45,058 nucleotides of DNA from Akkermansiaceae bacterium (GTDB taxonomy: Bacteria > Verrucomicrobiota > Verrucomicrobiia > Verrucomicrobiales > Akkermansiaceae): assembly GCA_903908495.1 (NCBI GenBank), contig CAIVSK010000029.1, positions 1 to 45,058 on the forward strand. Reading direction: 5' to 3'. Under the pieces are notes generated by a model. That model was not told the DNA's origin, made no database searches, and saw only the letters and a list, made by a program, of their open reading frames with translations. Numbering within the stretch: position 1 is the first letter of the stretch; every line of letters starts with the position of its first letter. The position numbers and the translations under genes were made by a program. Below, piece by piece: positions 34,626 through 43,753 of the stretch.

Positions 34626-34669
34626 AGGCATCTTGCCTGTCATGGACGACGGGCTTCCAGCCTGTCGTC
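34626..34669. repeat. Pair of REP-like hairpins
   Basis: Hairpin one: AGGCA-TCT-TGCCT (34626-34638). Hairpin two: 34645-34655 pairs with 34659-34669 (GACGAC..., eleven pairs including one G-T), loop TCC, containing GGCTTCCAGCC. The sequence resembles a widespread verrucomicrobial intergenic repeat whose shadow translation reads like 'TGKMP'. It lies between the mdh terminator and UGPase; the remaining ~170 bases to the UGPase start hold nothing clear. Confidence 0.65.
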
Positions 34670-34844
34670 TCATGCGAGGGCAGGCGGGAAGCGCTGTCCT
34701 CCCCACAGGCGTGGCCTGTTTTCCGATCAGGGAGCGCGGAACTGACAGTACTGGGCGCACCTGGATTGCTCTGAGGCGGATTTTCAGGCGTGACGCGGCG
34801 GCCGCCTTCGCCCACAGTTGCGTCTCACCACCCGCATCCAATCC

Positions 34845-36203
34845 ATGGCAAACTTCGACGCTTTTGAACACAAAATGACCGCCGCCGGCATGGGGGATGC
34901 CCCCATCCGTGCTTTCCGCCGCAATTACGACGCGCTGCTGCGCAACGAAACCGGCATGATCCCCGAAGAGGACATCGCGCCGGCCTCCGATCTAACGTCC
35001 TTCGAGGATGTCGCCGCCGCCGGTCCGGCGGATCTTGGATTGTTAGGCCAGGCGGTGGTCATCAAACTCAATGGCGGCTTGGGCACCAGCATGGGCTTGC
35101 AGGCGCCCAAGTGCCTGCTGCCTATCCGCGAGGGAGTGAATTTTCTCGACCTCATGGTGCGCCAGGTCCTCGATTTGCGGGAGCGCAGCGGCACCCATGT
35201 CCGGCTGTTGTTGATGAACAGCTTCAGCACCAGTCGCGAGACATTGCATCACCTCGCACATTGCGGCGCGCCGGATTCAGCCGGCCTGAGCGACCCCGCA
35301 CAAGTCGAGTTGATGCAAAACCAGATCCCCAAGATCGACGCCGCCACCTTGGCTCCCGCCGTCTGGCCGGCCGATCCGGACCTGGAGTGGTGCCCGCCCG
35401 GCCATGGCGACTTGTATCCGGCTCTGGTCGGCAGCGGATGGTTGGATCGCTTGCTAGGGGAGGGGATTCGCTACGCTTTTGTGTCCAACTCGGACAACCT
35501 GGGGGCCTCGCTCGATCCGGCCCTGCTCGGTCATTTCGCTGCTTCCGGCGCGCCGTTTCTGATGGAGGTGACCCGGCGCACCGCCGCCGATCGCAAGGGC
35601 GGTCACCTCGCCAGGCGCAAGAGCGACGGGCGCTTCGTGTTGCGCGAGGTGGCTCAGTGCCCGGATGCCGATCTGGCGGCGTTCCAGGACATCGAGCGCC
35701 ACCGCTATTTCAACACCAACAGCTTGTGGCTGCGCCTGGATCTGCTCAAAGCCCAGCTCACCGCCGACGCCGGCGTGCTGCCGCTGCCGATGATCCGCAA
35801 CCGCAAAACCGTCGATCCGCGCGACAAGACATCGCCCGCCGTCATCCAACTCGAGACCGCCATGGGCGCCGCCATCGAATGCTTCGCCGGGGCCGCCGCC
35901 ATCGCCGTGCCACGCAGCCGCTTCGCGCCGGTCAAAAGCACCGCTGATTTGTTAGCCCTGCGCTCCGATGCCTACCAAATCCACGCCGACGGCCAGGTCC
36001 GCCTCCACCCCGACCGCCACGGCGTGCCCCCCGTCATCACGCTTTGCGATAACTACAAACTCGTCGATCAACTCGATGCTCTTGGCGTGCCGAGCCTGCT
36101 CCACTGCCGCTCCCTAACAGTCACAAGCGCCGCGCACTTCCCCCCCGGCACCGTCCTCGAAGGGGATGTGACATGGAGCGGGACTTGCCAAAGTCCCGCG
36201 TGA
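34845..36203 (+). CDS. UTP-glucose-1-phosphate uridylyltransferase (UGP2 type)
   Basis: Makes UDP-glucose from UTP and glucose 1-phosphate, using the eukaryote-like fold rather than bacterial GalU. ATG 34845 gives 452 residues. Family motifs: VIKLNGGLGTSMGLQAPK (nucleotide loop), LLLMNSFSTSRET, WCPPGHGDLYPAL, FVSNSDNLGASLDP, HRYFNTNSLWLRLDLL, and AIAVPRSRFAPVKSTADLL. The C-terminal beta-helix is cut short: after EGDVTW the last residues SGTCQSPA are encoded by a REP hairpin (36178-36199), which also leads to the stop. The missing part of the C-terminal domain normally affects oligomerisation more than catalysis. Confidence 0.92.
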   Translation: MANFDAFEHKMTAAGMGDAPIRAFRRNYDALLRNETGMIPEEDIAPASDLTSFEDVAAAGPADLGLLGQAVVIKLNGGLGTSMGLQAPKCLLPIREGVNFLDLMVRQVLDLRERSGTHVRLLLMNSFSTSRETLHHLAHCGAPDSAGLSDPAQVELMQNQIPKIDAATLAPAVWPADPDLEWCPPGHGDLYPALVGSGWLDRLLGEGIRYAFVSNSDNLGASLDPALLGHFAASGAPFLMEVTRRTAADRKGGHLARRKSDGRFVLREVAQCPDADLAAFQDIERHRYFNTNSLWLRLDLLKAQLTADAGVLPLPMIRNRKTVDPRDKTSPAVIQLETAMGAAIECFAGAAAIAVPRSRFAPVKSTADLLALRSDAYQIHADGQVRLHPDRHGVPPVITLCDNYKLVDQLDALGVPSLLHCRSLTVTSAAHFPPGTVLEGDVTWSGTCQSPA

Positions 36204-36285
36204 AGGCGTGGAACGGGACTTGCCAAAGTCCCGTGTGAAAGGAGTCCCATTGAGGAGAAATACGCGGGACTTAGGCAAGTCCCGC
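36178..36285. repeat. Three REP hairpins around the UGPase end
   Basis: Three 9-bp stems with 4-base loops: 36178-36199 (GCGGGACTT/AAGTCCCGC), 36213-36234 (ACGGGACTT/AAGTCCCGT) and 36264-36285 (GCGGGACTT/AAGTCCCGC). Units one and two differ at the outermost pair in a compensatory way (G-C versus A-T), which points to selection or structural templating. The unit spacing (35 then 51 bases) and closeness to a RAYT remnant match bacterial REP/BIME elements. Confidence 0.85.
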
Positions 36286-36295
36286 TCCTCTCCCC

Positions 36296-36427
36296 TTACT
36301 TCACCGCTTTCGCCAGCTCACTCTCCCACAGCGAATACTCATCCTCCCCCAAATGCGCCTTCACCGGATTGCGGCGGATATATCGAATCACCTTGCGCAA
36401 GTGGTCCCCATCGCGAATGAGCCGTGA
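36296..36427 (-). pseudogene. REP-associated tyrosine transposase (RAYT) C-terminal fragment
   Basis: On the minus strand the frame ending at 36296 reads SRLIRDGDHLRKVIRYIRRN then PVKAHLGEDEYSLWESELAK. This is the C-terminal part of IS200-like RAYT proteins (YIRRNPVKA is their signature). The catalytic HUH histidines and tyrosine would lie upstream but are missing: the frame upstream of SRLI runs into hairpin sequence (36455-36475). It is flanked by REP hairpins on both sides, the expected substrate of a RAYT. A remnant, not a working gene. Confidence 0.75.
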
Positions 36428-36454
36428 TGAGATGCATGGTTTTTGGCAAAGACA

Positions 36455-36475
36455 CGACACTTGGCTAGTGTCGTT
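36455..36475. repeat. REP-like hairpin upstream of RAYT remnant
   Basis: ACGACACT pairs with AGTGTCGT around a TGGCT loop. It resembles the GGGACTT-GCCA-AAGTCCC units in plan, and lies on the other side of the RAYT fragment. Confidence 0.6.
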
Positions 36476-36540: not shown

Positions 36541-37707
36541 ATGGACTATCAAGCCAAAATCGCCCGCAACGTCGCCGCCATCCCGCGCTCGGGGATTCGT
36601 GATTTCTTCGAACTCGTGCAGGGCCGCGAGGGCATCATTTCCCTCGGCGTGGGCGAACCGGATTTCGTCACTCCATGGCACATCCGCGAGGCCGCCATCT
36701 ATTCGCTCGAAAAGGGCCAAACCACCTACACCTCCAACCTCGGCCTGCTCTCGCTGCGCAAGTCCATCGCCCGCTACGTCGGCAATTTCTTCGATGTCGC
36801 CTACGATCCGGCTCGCGAGGTGCTCGTCACCGTCGGCGTGTCCGAGGCGATCGATCTGGCGCTCCGGGCCTTGCTCAATCCCGGCGACGAGGTCGTTTTC
36901 CACGAACCCTGCTACGTTTCCTACAGCCCCAGCATCGTGCTGGCACATGGCCGCGCCGTCGCCGTGGAAACCGACAAGGCCGACGCATTCTCACTCAAGC
37001 CGGAAAAACTCGCCGCCGCCATCACCCCGCAAACCCGCGTGCTGATGCTCAATTTCCCCACCAATCCCACCGGTGCCGTCGCCAGTCGCGATGACCTCGA
37101 AGGCATCGCCAAACTCGCTATCCAGCACGACCTGATCGTTCTAACCGACGAAATCTACAGCGAGCTGCGCTACGACGGCCTCACCCACCTGTCCATCGCC
37201 TCCTTGCCAGGCATGCGCGAGCGCACCGTTTTGCTGCACGGGTTTTCCAAGGCCTTCGCCATGACCGGCTTCCGCCTCGGCTACGCCTGCGCCCCCCAGC
37301 CCATCATCGAGGCCATGATGAAAATCCATCAATACTCGATGCTCTGCGCCCCCATCATGAGCCAATGTGCCGCCCTCGAAGCCCTCGAAAATGGCACCCC
37401 GGCCATGCTCGCCATGCGCGACAGCTACCACCAGCGCCGCGATTTCATCGTCAGCCGGCTCAACCAGATCGGCCTCGACTGCCACACCCCCGGCGGTGCC
37501 TTCTATGTCTTCCCGGATATCCGCAGCACCGGCCTTTCCAGCAAGCAATTCGCCATGGGATTGCTCGAGGCGGAAAACGTCGCCGCCGTGCCCGGCAGTG
37601 CCTTCGGCCCTTCCGGCGAAGGCTTCCTGCGCTGCTGTTACGCCACCGCCTTCACCGACCTGCGCACCGCCATGGACAAAATGGAGCGCTTCGTCCAGGC
37701 CCTCTGA
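36541..37707 (+). CDS. Pyridoxal-phosphate aminotransferase, class I/II
   Basis: An aspartate-aminotransferase-fold enzyme of 388 residues. ATG 36541 gives the usual N-terminus (MDYQAKIARNVAAIPRSGIR); upstream ATGs at 36526 or 36499 lie in repeat-rich sequence. Motifs: LGVGEPDFVTPWHI, TTYTSNLGLLSLRKSIA, the PLP-ring region FPTNPTGAVAS, LTDEIYSELRYDG with the cofactor-binding Asp and Tyr, the Schiff-base lysine in HGFSKAFAMTGFRLGYA, and a C-terminal arginine in GFLRCCYATAF. The substrate is not determined; it most resembles aspartate/aromatic or alanine-type members. A CAAX-protease-like gene begins eight bases after the stop. Confidence 0.92.
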   Translation: MDYQAKIARNVAAIPRSGIRDFFELVQGREGIISLGVGEPDFVTPWHIREAAIYSLEKGQTTYTSNLGLLSLRKSIARYVGNFFDVAYDPAREVLVTVGVSEAIDLALRALLNPGDEVVFHEPCYVSYSPSIVLAHGRAVAVETDKADAFSLKPEKLAAAITPQTRVLMLNFPTNPTGAVASRDDLEGIAKLAIQHDLIVLTDEIYSELRYDGLTHLSIASLPGMRERTVLLHGFSKAFAMTGFRLGYACAPQPIIEAMMKIHQYSMLCAPIMSQCAALEALENGTPAMLAMRDSYHQRRDFIVSRLNQIGLDCHTPGGAFYVFPDIRSTGLSSKQFAMGLLEAENVAAVPGSAFGPSGEGFLRCCYATAFTDLRTAMDKMERFVQAL

Positions 37708-37714
37708 CACGCCC

Positions 37715-38485
37715 ATGCACGCCTCTTCGCAGCCCAACGACGACCCGGTCGTGCTCACCCGCGCCCATGTGCTGCCCCTCGCCATCTTCATGGCCTTCAT
37801 GCTGCTGCTGCAGTTGCTCGCCAACCTCATCGAGTGGAAACACCCCGACGCCCCCTGGTGGCGACAGGATCCAGCTCAATTCGTCTATCCGCTTCAAACG
37901 ATCGCTTCAATCGCCCTGCTGGTCCGTTACTGGGCTTGTTACACCTTTGATTGGTCGTGGCGATGGGGTTTGATTGGGGTTGCATTTGGGGCGGTGGGAA
38001 TTGGCTTTTGGTTGTTGCCCACGACACTCTACGACGCCCTGGGATTTACGGGCAAGACCGACGGTTGGTTGCGGGCGCTTGGGGTGGCGGCGCGTAAGGA
38101 CGGGTTCAATCCGGGCTTGTTTGACAACCCATTGGCGTATTGGGCGGCGGTGGGGTTTCGTTTCTTGCGAGCCGCGGTGGTGGTGGCGCTGGTGGAGGAG
38201 ATTTTCTGGCGCGGCTTTCTGATGCGTTTCATCTGTGATTGGGAGGGCGAGTATTGGCGGCAACCGTTTGGGCGCGGCTCTTGGCTGTCCTACCTCGTCG
38301 TTACTGGCCTGTTCGTGTTCTCGCATGGCCCGCTGGATTGGGCGGCGGCTTGGGTATACGGCAGCCTGACCTTTTTCCTCTGCGTTTGGAGTAAGAACCT
38401 CGGGGCTTGCGTGATCATGCACGCCGCCGCCAATTTCATCATGGGCCTCTACGCCATGGCATACGGGAAATTCGGCTTGTGGTAG
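37715..38485 (+). CDS. CAAX-protease-like membrane protein (PEP-CTERM associated)
   Basis: A CPBP-family intramembrane metalloprotease-like protein of 256 residues, start at ATG 37715 seven bases after the aminotransferase stop. About six hydrophobic segments. The catalytic signatures are EEIFWRGFL (E161, E162, R166), FVFSHGPLDW (H204) and VIMHAAANF (H236, N240). The YPLQTIASIALLVRYW start matches the subgroup I know as PEP-CTERM/exosortase-associated CAAX proteases, which agrees with the PEP-CTERM protein at the left end of the window. No exosortase gene is seen here. Likely role: processing or handling of sorted proteins at the membrane. Confidence 0.82.
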   Translation: MHASSQPNDDPVVLTRAHVLPLAIFMAFMLLLQLLANLIEWKHPDAPWWRQDPAQFVYPLQTIASIALLVRYWACYTFDWSWRWGLIGVAFGAVGIGFWLLPTTLYDALGFTGKTDGWLRALGVAARKDGFNPGLFDNPLAYWAAVGFRFLRAAVVVALVEEIFWRGFLMRFICDWEGEYWRQPFGRGSWLSYLVVTGLFVFSHGPLDWAAAWVYGSLTFFLCVWSKNLGACVIMHAAANFIMGLYAMAYGKFGLW

Positions 38486-38502
38486 CGGGCCCCGGTTGCT
38501 CC

Positions 38503-38673
38503 GGTGGGTTGCCGGCGCATCGGTGGGTTGCCGGCGGATCGGTGGGTTGCCGGCGGATCGGTGGGTTGCCGGCGGATCGGTGGATTGCCTGTGGATCGGT
38601 GGGTTGCCTGTGGATCGGTGGGTTGCCTGTGGATCGGTGGGTTGCCTGTGGATCGGTGGGTTGCCTGTGGATC
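38503..38673. repeat. 19-bp tandem repeat, nine units
   Basis: Nine head-to-tail 19-base units based on GGTGGGTTGCCNGNGGATC. Units 1-4 carry CGGCG (unit 1 has CGCATC), units 5-9 carry CTGTG, so the array is in two blocks that must have expanded separately; a partial tenth unit (GGTGGGT) follows. 19 is not a multiple of 3, so it is not a coding repeat. No spacers, so not CRISPR. It lies between the CAAX-protease-like gene and tRNA-Tyr. The stretch 38674-38778 after it shows nothing else. Confidence 0.95.
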
Positions 38674-38778
38674 GGTGGGTCATTCGCATAAATTTCCTCC
38701 GTTCCCACATTTTTCGCTTGCCAAATCCGCCGCCCTCCCTCATACCGTCGGCCCGCGCGGCAACGTGCGGATGATGAT

Positions 38779-42487: not shown

Positions 42488-43753
42488 CTATATTGTTTCA
42501 GCGAACTTTCTGCGAGCGAACAGGCTCTTTACCATGAGCTTTCGCATCGTGGTATTTCGTAGGTTTAGTATTCCATCTAGCGTCACAAGTTTTGGTGCAT
42601 GGAATGTGGTGGCTGATTCGGCATTCAGATCGCCATTTACTGTTTGTAACTTCGGCGCGTTGATGGTTTTCGCTGAGTTGGCATTCAGTGAGCCGCTTAC
42701 CGTTTTCAGTTTCGGTGCAAAAAAGCTAGTGGCTGATTCGGCGTTCAGATCGCCATTTACTGTTTGTAGGTTCGGCGCACAGAAGGTGGTGGCTGATTTG
42801 GCGTTCAGATAGCTTTTCACTGTTTTCAGGTTGGGCGCACAGAATCTGGTGGTTGAGTCGGCGTTCAGATGTTCTTTCACCATTTTAAGATTCGGAACAT
42901 TAAAAGACATAGCTGAGGGGACATAGAAGGCCCCCTCAACCGTTTGTAGCATCGGAGCATTGAAGGATGTCGCTGATTCAGCAAACAAGACGTTAACGGT
43001 TCGTAGCACCGGAGCATTGAAAGATGTAGCTAGGGCAGCACCCAATATATCAACCGTTTGCAGCATCGGAGCATTGAAGGATGTAGCGTCATCAGCATCC
43101 AGCTCCCCCTCAACCGTCTGTAGCATCGGAGCATAAAAAGCTGTAGCTGAGCAAACAATCAGATCTCCCCCAACGGTTCGCAGGTTCGGAACATTCAAGG
43201 ATGTAGCGAACATTGTACGCATATCTCTCAGAACAGTTTCCAAATTAGGGGAATCGAATTCAGTAGCTGATTCAGCATTCAGGTCCCCCTCAACCGTTCG
43301 CAGGTTTGGAACATTTATGGATGTAGCTGAGTCGATACACAGATCTCCCGCAACTGTTTGCAGGTTCGGAGAATAAAACGTAACTGAGTCGGCAATAATA
43401 TCCGAACCTGTCGTTAGCAGATTAGGTAGGTAGAGATGCCGAACGTCATTAATTATAATCAAAGAAGCCACATGGTGGTATTTCAGTTCGAGGGTATTCT
43501 TCGAACTATCTCGAAACGAACAAAGCAGAACTGTTTGCCCATTTGTCTTGATTTTAACCATACGGTTGGCGGGTATAATCTCCTTGGAAAGCTTGTTGCA
43601 TTCCTGCTTTCCAAGCAATCCGTGAGAACCATACCAGTTCCCGTGCTGATCGAAACAAACAAGAAGGACATCCCGAATCTTTTTGGTGGCTTTGTAATGG
43701 GCAAGAGCCAGCTTCAGATTTTGTTTTGTGAATTGCGTGTAAGGCTTTGTCAT
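42488..43753 (-). CDS. 20-residue-repeat solenoid protein, AT-rich gene
   Basis: A 421-residue protein. Residues about 105-400 are fifteen repeats of 20 residues (two of 19), consensus ATSFNAPNLQTVEGDLNAES; examples are TTFCAPNLQTVNGDLNAESA and TSFNAPMLQTVDILG. The pattern is that of a beta-solenoid leucine-rich-like fold. The N-terminal ~100 residues (MTKPYTQFTKQNLKLALAHY; VLLVCFDQHGNWYGSHGLLG) form an unrecognised domain. The near-identical repeats imply recent expansion. AT-rich like its convergent neighbour and unlike the rest of the window, so probably acquired together. No signal peptide or membrane segment, so a cytosolic binding or recognition protein is likely. Confidence 0.8.
   Translation of the reverse strand: MTKPYTQFTKQNLKLALAHYKATKKIRDVLLVCFDQHGNWYGSHGLLGKQECNKLSKEIIPANRMVKIKTNGQTVLLCSFRDSSKNTLELKYHHVASLIIINDVRHLYLPNLLTTGSDIIADSVTFYSPNLQTVAGDLCIDSATSINVPNLRTVEGDLNAESATEFDSPNLETVLRDMRTMFATSLNVPNLRTVGGDLIVCSATAFYAPMLQTVEGELDADDATSFNAPMLQTVDILGAALATSFNAPVLRTVNVLFAESATSFNAPMLQTVEGAFYVPSAMSFNVPNLKMVKEHLNADSTTRFCAPNLKTVKSYLNAKSATTFCAPNLQTVNGDLNAESATSFFAPKLKTVSGSLNANSAKTINAPKLQTVNGDLNAESATTFHAPKLVTLDGILNLRNTTMRKLMVKSLFARRKFAETI

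Follow-up and report, generated by a model that had tools for sequence, protein, structure and literature searches.

A REP-like palindromic repeat encodes the end of a UGPase in a clade of Akkermansiaceae species

The window, by which we mean the whole stretch of 45,058 nucleotides of Akkermansiaceae DNA that was analysed (genome G000), contains a gene of the UTP--glucose-1-phosphate uridylyltransferase family (UGPase), followed by a short interval with palindromic repeats and the relic of a transposase-like gene, and then by a gene for a PLP-dependent aminotransferase (Table 1). The UGPase, whose frame begins in the open reading frame list at an upstream TTG (34818) and not at 34845, belongs to its family by a PF01704 (UDPGP) match that spans residues 23-436 and scores above the curated cut-off. 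Its C-terminus reads directly as ...EGDVTW-SGTCQSPA-TGA, with SGTCQSPA at 36177-36200 and the TGA at 36201-36203 of the plus strand, the final codons being TGG AGC GGG ACT TGC CAA AGT CCC GCG TGA. The hairpin in these codons has a perfect stem (-15.9 kcal/mol as RNA), and the stop codon lies one base beyond it. The original prediction, that the UGPase ends in a hairpin-encoded SGTCQSPA followed by the stop, was thus borne out, with one correction: because the repeat unit includes the preceding tryptophan codon (TGG, 36174-36176), TGGA...GTGAA recurring in register in the second copy, the repeat-derived part, which we call the cap, comprises nine residues and the stop. TGGA was found at the foot in 31 of the 84 repeat readings that we aligned. 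As the AlphaFold model of the UGPase is poor (mean pLDDT 58.6), it permits no statement on how the cap folds. In the gap before the UGPase gene (34640-34680), a palindrome (GACGACGGGCTTCCAGCCTGTCGTC) was seen by eye and possibly represents a further repeat family.

Table 1. Features at the UGPase locus of the window, and other genes whose reading frames end at the same repeat
Feature	Position or locus	Strand	Basis or remark
UGPase gene (UTP--glucose-1-phosphate uridylyltransferase family), 452 aa	34845..36203	+	PF01704, 383.8 bits, cut-off 22
Repeat-derived cap, codons W S G T C Q S P A and stop TGA	36174..36203	+	Direct read; second copy in register; uncapped relatives without it
Cap hairpin, 9-bp stem, 4-nt loop	36178..36199	+	Folding and pattern match
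Second repeat copy	36213..36234	+	Pattern match, in register with the cap, 35 bases after the first
Third repeat copy, inverted	36264..36285	-	Pattern match; T-rich stretch follows on the minus strand
RAYT-like gene relic, last 42 codons and stop	36296..36424	-	tblastn with intact G075 protein; stop read directly
Palindrome of like design but diverged (ACGACACT stem), far end of cassette relic	36454..36474	.	Direct read
PLP-dependent aminotransferase	36541..37707	+	Adjoins UGPase only in five capped genomes
NUDIX	L121 in G066; L130 in G019		ORF ends at repeat
Oligopeptide ABC ATPase	L131 in G019; L135 in G000		ORF ends at repeat
Pterin-binding DHPS	L109 in G065		ORF ends at repeat
AraC-type regulator	L154 in G036		ORF ends at repeat; probable case

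The cap hairpin has many counterparts. Its pattern gave six matches in the window (three sites, each on both strands) where 0.15 were expected, and none of 100 shuffles reached six. When up to three mismatches were allowed, the window's own genome gave 10 matches per strand and the reversed-pattern control none, several of these matches being one site on both strands and a few of those with three mismatches looking like chance; with up to two mismatches, ten sites were obtained. The repeat is present in 8 of 73 same-genus genomes (up to two mismatches; no genome matched the reversed pattern), G036 being the richest. Given these dispersed copies and the empty control, it is highly improbable that an ordinary intrinsic terminator or an unrelated hairpin overlaps the stop codon by chance, even though gene-end hairpins are common and the third copy, read on the minus strand, resembles a terminator (0.6 such sites are expected by chance). 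Rfam gave no match at its gathering threshold between 35900 and 36800. The cap hairpin was itself considered as a terminator candidate and rejected, as it has no T-run and was not picked by terminator prediction.

To describe the family, we aligned 84 readings that represent 80 distinct sites, from 54 loci and the window. The commonest feet are ATGG (21), TGGG (14), AGGG (10) and GTGG (9). Like the GTAG REP superfamily, the repeat is a dispersed short palindrome; as the conserved GTAG/GTRG foot is missing (GTAG stands at the foot in none of the 84 readings, and GTRG near it in 11), we call the repeat REP-like and keep it out of that superfamily. Five of the six frames of the 31-nt unit are open, and the sixth, the frame used by the UGPase, carries a stop, which directly follows the hairpin in 19 of the 84 readings. 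Tandem 12-base copies of the foot (TGGAACGG...) occur in coding and non-coding sequence alike (L085:3105-3135, L085:2355-2385, L098:3130-3165).

UGPases, full or partial, were located in 67 of the 73 same-genus genomes; five of the other six gave a weak match to another protein only, and one gave none. The bins G065 and G066 yielded no UGPase. We read thirty same-genus UGPases to the stop, that of the window included, and a later addition (G075) brought the number to 31. Capped ends were found in five: the window and G019, G029, G036 and G075. In these five, a repeat-encoded W[SN]G...CQSP[AV] (that is, W-x-G-x-CQSP[A/V]) leads into the stop, and the cap extends 10 residues beyond EGDV; in G036 an additional 12-nt foot unit raises this to 14, and G075 has two such extra units. 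Twenty-five other UGPases continue for 18-25 residues past EGDV, mostly with a G-x-Y-x-[DN] motif, to a total of 456-464 aa, and that of G006 ends EGDVMQ-stop, two residues past EGDV, with no repeat (up to three mismatches) in the 1.5 kb after the gene. Among the relatives, strong conservation stops at EGDV, in support of the prediction. A relative with the same C-terminus and no hairpin, which would have spoken against the prediction, was found in weak form only: the hairpin of G019 has decayed (-4.7 kcal/mol) and is still plainly the same repeat. Among the 78 of 80 named relatives that were read (L344 and L374 were omitted), the same four, G019, G029, G036 and G075, are capped, and the other 74 are without the repeat. 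Some distant relatives, too, have a short tail (L351, L361 and L367, with proteins of 441-447 aa), and its loss therefore seems tolerable.

If the ancestral 3' end had been pushed downstream, it might still be recognizable there. We searched for it in six frames with a 25-position profile made from the 25 uncapped relatives (the positive control, E 3e-12, was one of the 25 training rows), and the old tail had no match in the 1.6-3.4 kb searched in each of the five capped genomes and G006. The named capped records come from metagenome bins labelled Akkermansiaceae or Verrucomicrobia, and as their sample names point to lakes, the capped bacteria are probably lake-dwelling. The four named capped records are metagenome-assembled, and G075 (12.6 Mb) has 6% contamination, so that an assembly or binning artefact of a single bin might be suspected; however, the same join is seen in five assemblies with different sample names and with UGPases that are 84-88% identical, and we give this suspicion almost no credence. 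The G075 UGPase contains a different palindrome (GCGGGCATGTTGCCCGC), present twice, in frame, inside the coding sequence (L098:2120-2240), and is there about 34 residues longer than that of the window; with up to one mismatch this palindrome was found in five of eight genomes searched, with 11 matches in G075.

We found matches to the aminotransferase in all 73 genomes, in five of them to a paralogue only. The UGPase and a close aminotransferase orthologue were both located in 63 genomes and adjoin only in G000, G019, G029, G036 and G075, with spacers of about 0.24-1.2 kb, in a count that was made by comparing two tables by eye and is limited by contigs, most of the genomes being drafts. In the other genomes, more than 4 kb separates the two genes or they lie on different contigs (the nearest being those of G086, at about 4.4 kb), and they lie far apart in the single-contig genomes G004, G059, G077 and G083. 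As the genes adjoin only where the UGPase is capped, a rearrangement must be part of the story. In G006, the ORF that follows the UGPase is convergent and, as judged by eye, L,D-transpeptidase-like, and the aminotransferase is on another contig. There, an exact 13-base half-repeat (TGGAGCGGGACTT) starts 76 bases upstream of the aminotransferase, the place that a transposase cassette occupies in the other five genomes. With up to one mismatch, none of the six outgroups has this half-repeat in the 1.5 kb that precede the aminotransferase; when the G006 stretch was base-shuffled 2000 times, it turned up in 7 of the shuffles, a figure that is flattered by the half-repeat having been seen before the test. 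Full repeats were found in this 1.5 kb neither in G006 nor in the six outgroups.

Using the G075 protein as a tblastn query, we detected an IS200-like, RAYT-like gene or its relic between the UGPase and the aminotransferase in all five capped genomes. In G075, the gene is open, and all 208 residues are matched. Its product matches PF01797 (29.4 bits, cut-off 23), which makes it Y1/HUH transposase-like, and has HVH at residue 121, which we take to be the HUH motif; since it scores 64.7 bits, below the cut-off of 80, against the NCBI equivalog REP_Tyr_transpos (NF047646), we call the gene RAYT-like. In the other four genomes, it has decayed while the cap stayed in frame: G036 retains residues 1-109 and 111-208 in two frames, owing to a frameshift, with one TAG also counted; the window retains residues 167-208 (36299-36424, minus strand, 83% identity, E 5e-23); and N-terminal relics remain in G019 (residues 1-59, 44% identity with gaps, E 1.7e-8) and G029 (residues 1-28). 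In G036 and G075, repeat copies in both orientations lie on both sides of the gene, as flanking palindromes do in a REPtron, and a palindrome like the diverged one at the far end of the window's relic also occurs on the aminotransferase side of the G075 cassette. As relatives of the transposase-like protein are found in 68 of the 73 genomes, the gene family is common; its position at the UGPase is not. Because a cassette or its relic stands beside the cap in five of five genomes, and because the gene adjacency is unique to them, we conclude that the cap is the outer palindrome of a transposase cassette that sits at the junction of a rearrangement. The prediction had spoken of a mobile repeat capping a metabolic gene; the repeat is dispersed and lies beside a transposase-like gene, and from these two facts we infer that the family is mobile.

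The UGPase is not the only gene that the repeat terminates. We fetched the other sites with up to two mismatches, and one with up to three, as 53 loci, 52 of which hold a copy by pattern (L160 holds none), and considered ORFs of at least 120 aa. At six loci, an ORF of a Pfam family ends in the repeat or within 22 bases of it (Table 1). Three further cap-like ORFs, two at L123 and one at L146, match no Pfam family and were not counted, and the Pfam scan left out the cap-like ORFs of L124 (minus strand), L145, L154 (the second one) and L155. Among NUDIX orthologues, the end is repeat-encoded in G066, in G019 (five residues further) and, in degenerate form, in G029, and not in G000, G036 or G006. 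Among those of the ABC ATPase, G019 and G029 have such an end, and G000 has one that is read in a different frame; it is lacking in G066, where a repeat copy lies some 90 bases downstream of the match, and in G075, G006 and G036. For DHPS, such an end occurs only in G065, and the G066 protein ends at EALLGD. These comparisons omit rows without a usable tail (1 of 30, L225, for the ABC ATPase and 12 of 30 for DHPS). Unlike the UGPase, which has lost its tail, these three genes are extended at their native ends. The repeat has ended four kinds of gene in the clade (UGPase, NUDIX, ABC ATPase and DHPS) and probably a fifth, the AraC-type regulator. Repeat copies also occur where ORFs are extended at the N-terminus (those of queuosine synthase, biotin ligase, class-III aminotransferase and others); we did not count these because the true start may lie downstream.

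A UGPase tree of 40 rows, with the tails cut off, gave the order (G006,(G075,(G036,(G000,(G019,G029))))). The six-species clade has support of 100/99 and the four capped species 99/92; support for the five without G006 is weak (82/58). For the anatomy of the end, its restriction to this clade, the common cassette, the loss of the old tail and the unique gene adjacency, all of which are observed, we consider the following explanation probable. A cassette, in which REP-like palindromes flank a small Y1/HUH transposase-like (RAYT-like) gene, would have come between the UGPase and a previously distant aminotransferase in the common ancestor of five, perhaps six, species of Akkermansiaceae. The join would have severed the UGPase behind EGDV, where the well-conserved turns of its C-terminal part end, and the ribosome would have continued into the outermost repeat, reading W-x-G-x-C-Q-S-P-[A/V] and then a TGA by way of the repeat's own 3' flank. 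Repeat or transposase activity would have caused both the join and the loss of the tail, and the transposase-like gene would have decayed afterwards, with the cap, tolerated rather than useful, retained in frame.

The position of G006 bears on the order of these events. Since this sister of the five capped species is truncated at the same residue and has no repeat there, the loss of the tail may predate the cap. Two histories fit: either a truncation common to G006 and the five came first and the cap then arose in the ancestor of the five, or the cap arose in the ancestor of all six and was lost in G006. The exact half-repeat at the G006 aminotransferase hints that a cassette was once present and then lost, and so leans towards the second, and the different gene downstream of its UGPase indicates that G006 may be secondarily rearranged. 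It is possible, but in our view rather unlikely, that truncation came first, an ancestral stop or deletion having shortened the UGPase to the state of G006 and the cassette having been inserted later, at the new stop or immediately ahead of it, with a gain of nine residues; the gene would then have been capped and its end not replaced. The repeat-free EGDVMQ end of G006 is what this order of events would leave, and the native ends of the NUDIX and DHPS genes were extended by the same repeat, whereas the half-repeat and the signs of rearrangement in G006 weigh against it. The claim that the repeat replaced the original 3' end consequently holds in part: the old tail is gone and the end is repeat-encoded, while removal by the repeat itself is put in doubt by the G006 truncation and by the involvement of a rearrangement.

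Preservation of the frame and stop in five species might also mean that the hairpin and the peptide are useful and were retained for that reason, perhaps as the 3' end of the mRNA or as a C-terminal extension. In line with this, one A-T pair of the G000 stem is G-C in G029, two changes having kept it paired, and at the outer position G000 and G029 have G-C where G036 has A-T. However, hairpin energies, which are -18.0 kcal/mol in G029, -15.9 in G000, -14.2 in G036 and -13.2 in G075, fall to -4.7 in G019, where the structure has largely decayed, and the outer pair is lost in G075. Furthermore, the changes in the cap, over only eight codons, show no clear excess at third positions (G000 differs from G036 by two changes, both at position 2, and from G019 by three, of which two are at position 3 and one is at position 2), whereas third positions differ most in the body of the UGPase gene. 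In three genomes, the outer pair of the cap is the one that most repeats of the same genome carry: G036 (28 of 36 A-T), G019 (4 of 4 G-C) and G029 (4 of 5 G-C). The pairs of G000 are mixed (5 of 11 G-C, 3 A-T), and only the neighbouring copy shares the T-T of the G075 cap. Such agreement is also expected from repeat-to-repeat conversion or from a shared source, and conversion among repeats may be one reading of it. We therefore regard a helpful cap as very unlikely; the cap is most likely neutral. A broader proposal, that the family acts as a portable gene end whose copies in some genomes seem to change together, so that evolution of the repeat, and not the history of the gene itself, rewrites the C-terminus of a core enzyme, is one that we consider unlikely.

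Repeats that end genes have been described before. A 2013 survey of GTAG- and CGTC-tagged repeats is reportedly by Di Nocera, and a 2007 study of RU-1 fusions is said to be by Delihas. Rickettsia palindromic elements are palindromic repeats translated within proteins, mostly as internal inserts; the UGPase cap is likewise a translated palindromic repeat, but in another phylum. The 2013 survey (PMC3733652), in which the Rickettsia elements are cited, describes REPs near or overlapping ORF ends, with termini that often provide stop codons, and names the verrucomicrobium O. terrae as having the most intragenic GTAG repeats. Compared with the REPs described there, the UGPase cap is alike in its gene-end position and repeat-provided stop; it differs in that its foot is not GTAG and in that one event is traced through five species, with a cassette, a decay series and a lost ancestral tail. 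According to the 2007 study (PMC2759123), the mobile 127-bp RU-1 at the 3' end of the enterobacterial amidase gene ECA3499 removes the normal stop and, with a stop inside the repeat, adds some 34 residues past the conserved domain, which are absent from the amidases of the other genera named there. In both cases, an enzyme gene carries a small repeat at its 3' end and a stop within that repeat, but in the UGPase the repeat is 30 nt long, contributes nine residues, is shared by five species and accompanies loss of the native tail. By sequence comparison, the UGPase also carries an in-frame C-terminal repeat that is absent from relatives, which marks it as a gene-end repeat fusion.

REPtrons, in two accounts from 2010 (PMC2817692) and 2021 (PMC8266576), are RAYT genes flanked by inverted REPs, with a role for GTAG. 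The cassette at the UGPase resembles those described in having an HUH-type transposase-like gene between inverted palindromes, the outer one just past the gene's stop, and differs in that its protein falls below the REP_Tyr_transpos cut-off and in that so few of the repeat readings have GTRG near the foot. Among the titles listed by searches of open-licence papers, none points to this repeat or to this UGPase end. The kind of event is thus already published, as gene-ending, stop-supplying repeats, and the UGPase cap is a new and well-traced case of it.

In this case, the passage of a seemingly mobile palindrome into protein can be followed, since the sequences still show the uncapped form of relatives, a cassette that is open in one species and decayed in others, and the cap that has been kept. 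As one repeat family ends several kinds of gene, gene callers and protein families will meet ends like xSGTCQSPA and its frame variants, and these should not be taken as conserved motifs. Other repeats were noted further along the window. At 38464-38716, at and after the end of a CPBP-like protease ORF, there are at least 10 head-to-tail copies of a 19-base unit (CGGTGGGTTGCC...), and a long, diverged repeat array at 42610-43370, with a period of about 57-60 bases, perhaps encodes a repeat protein.
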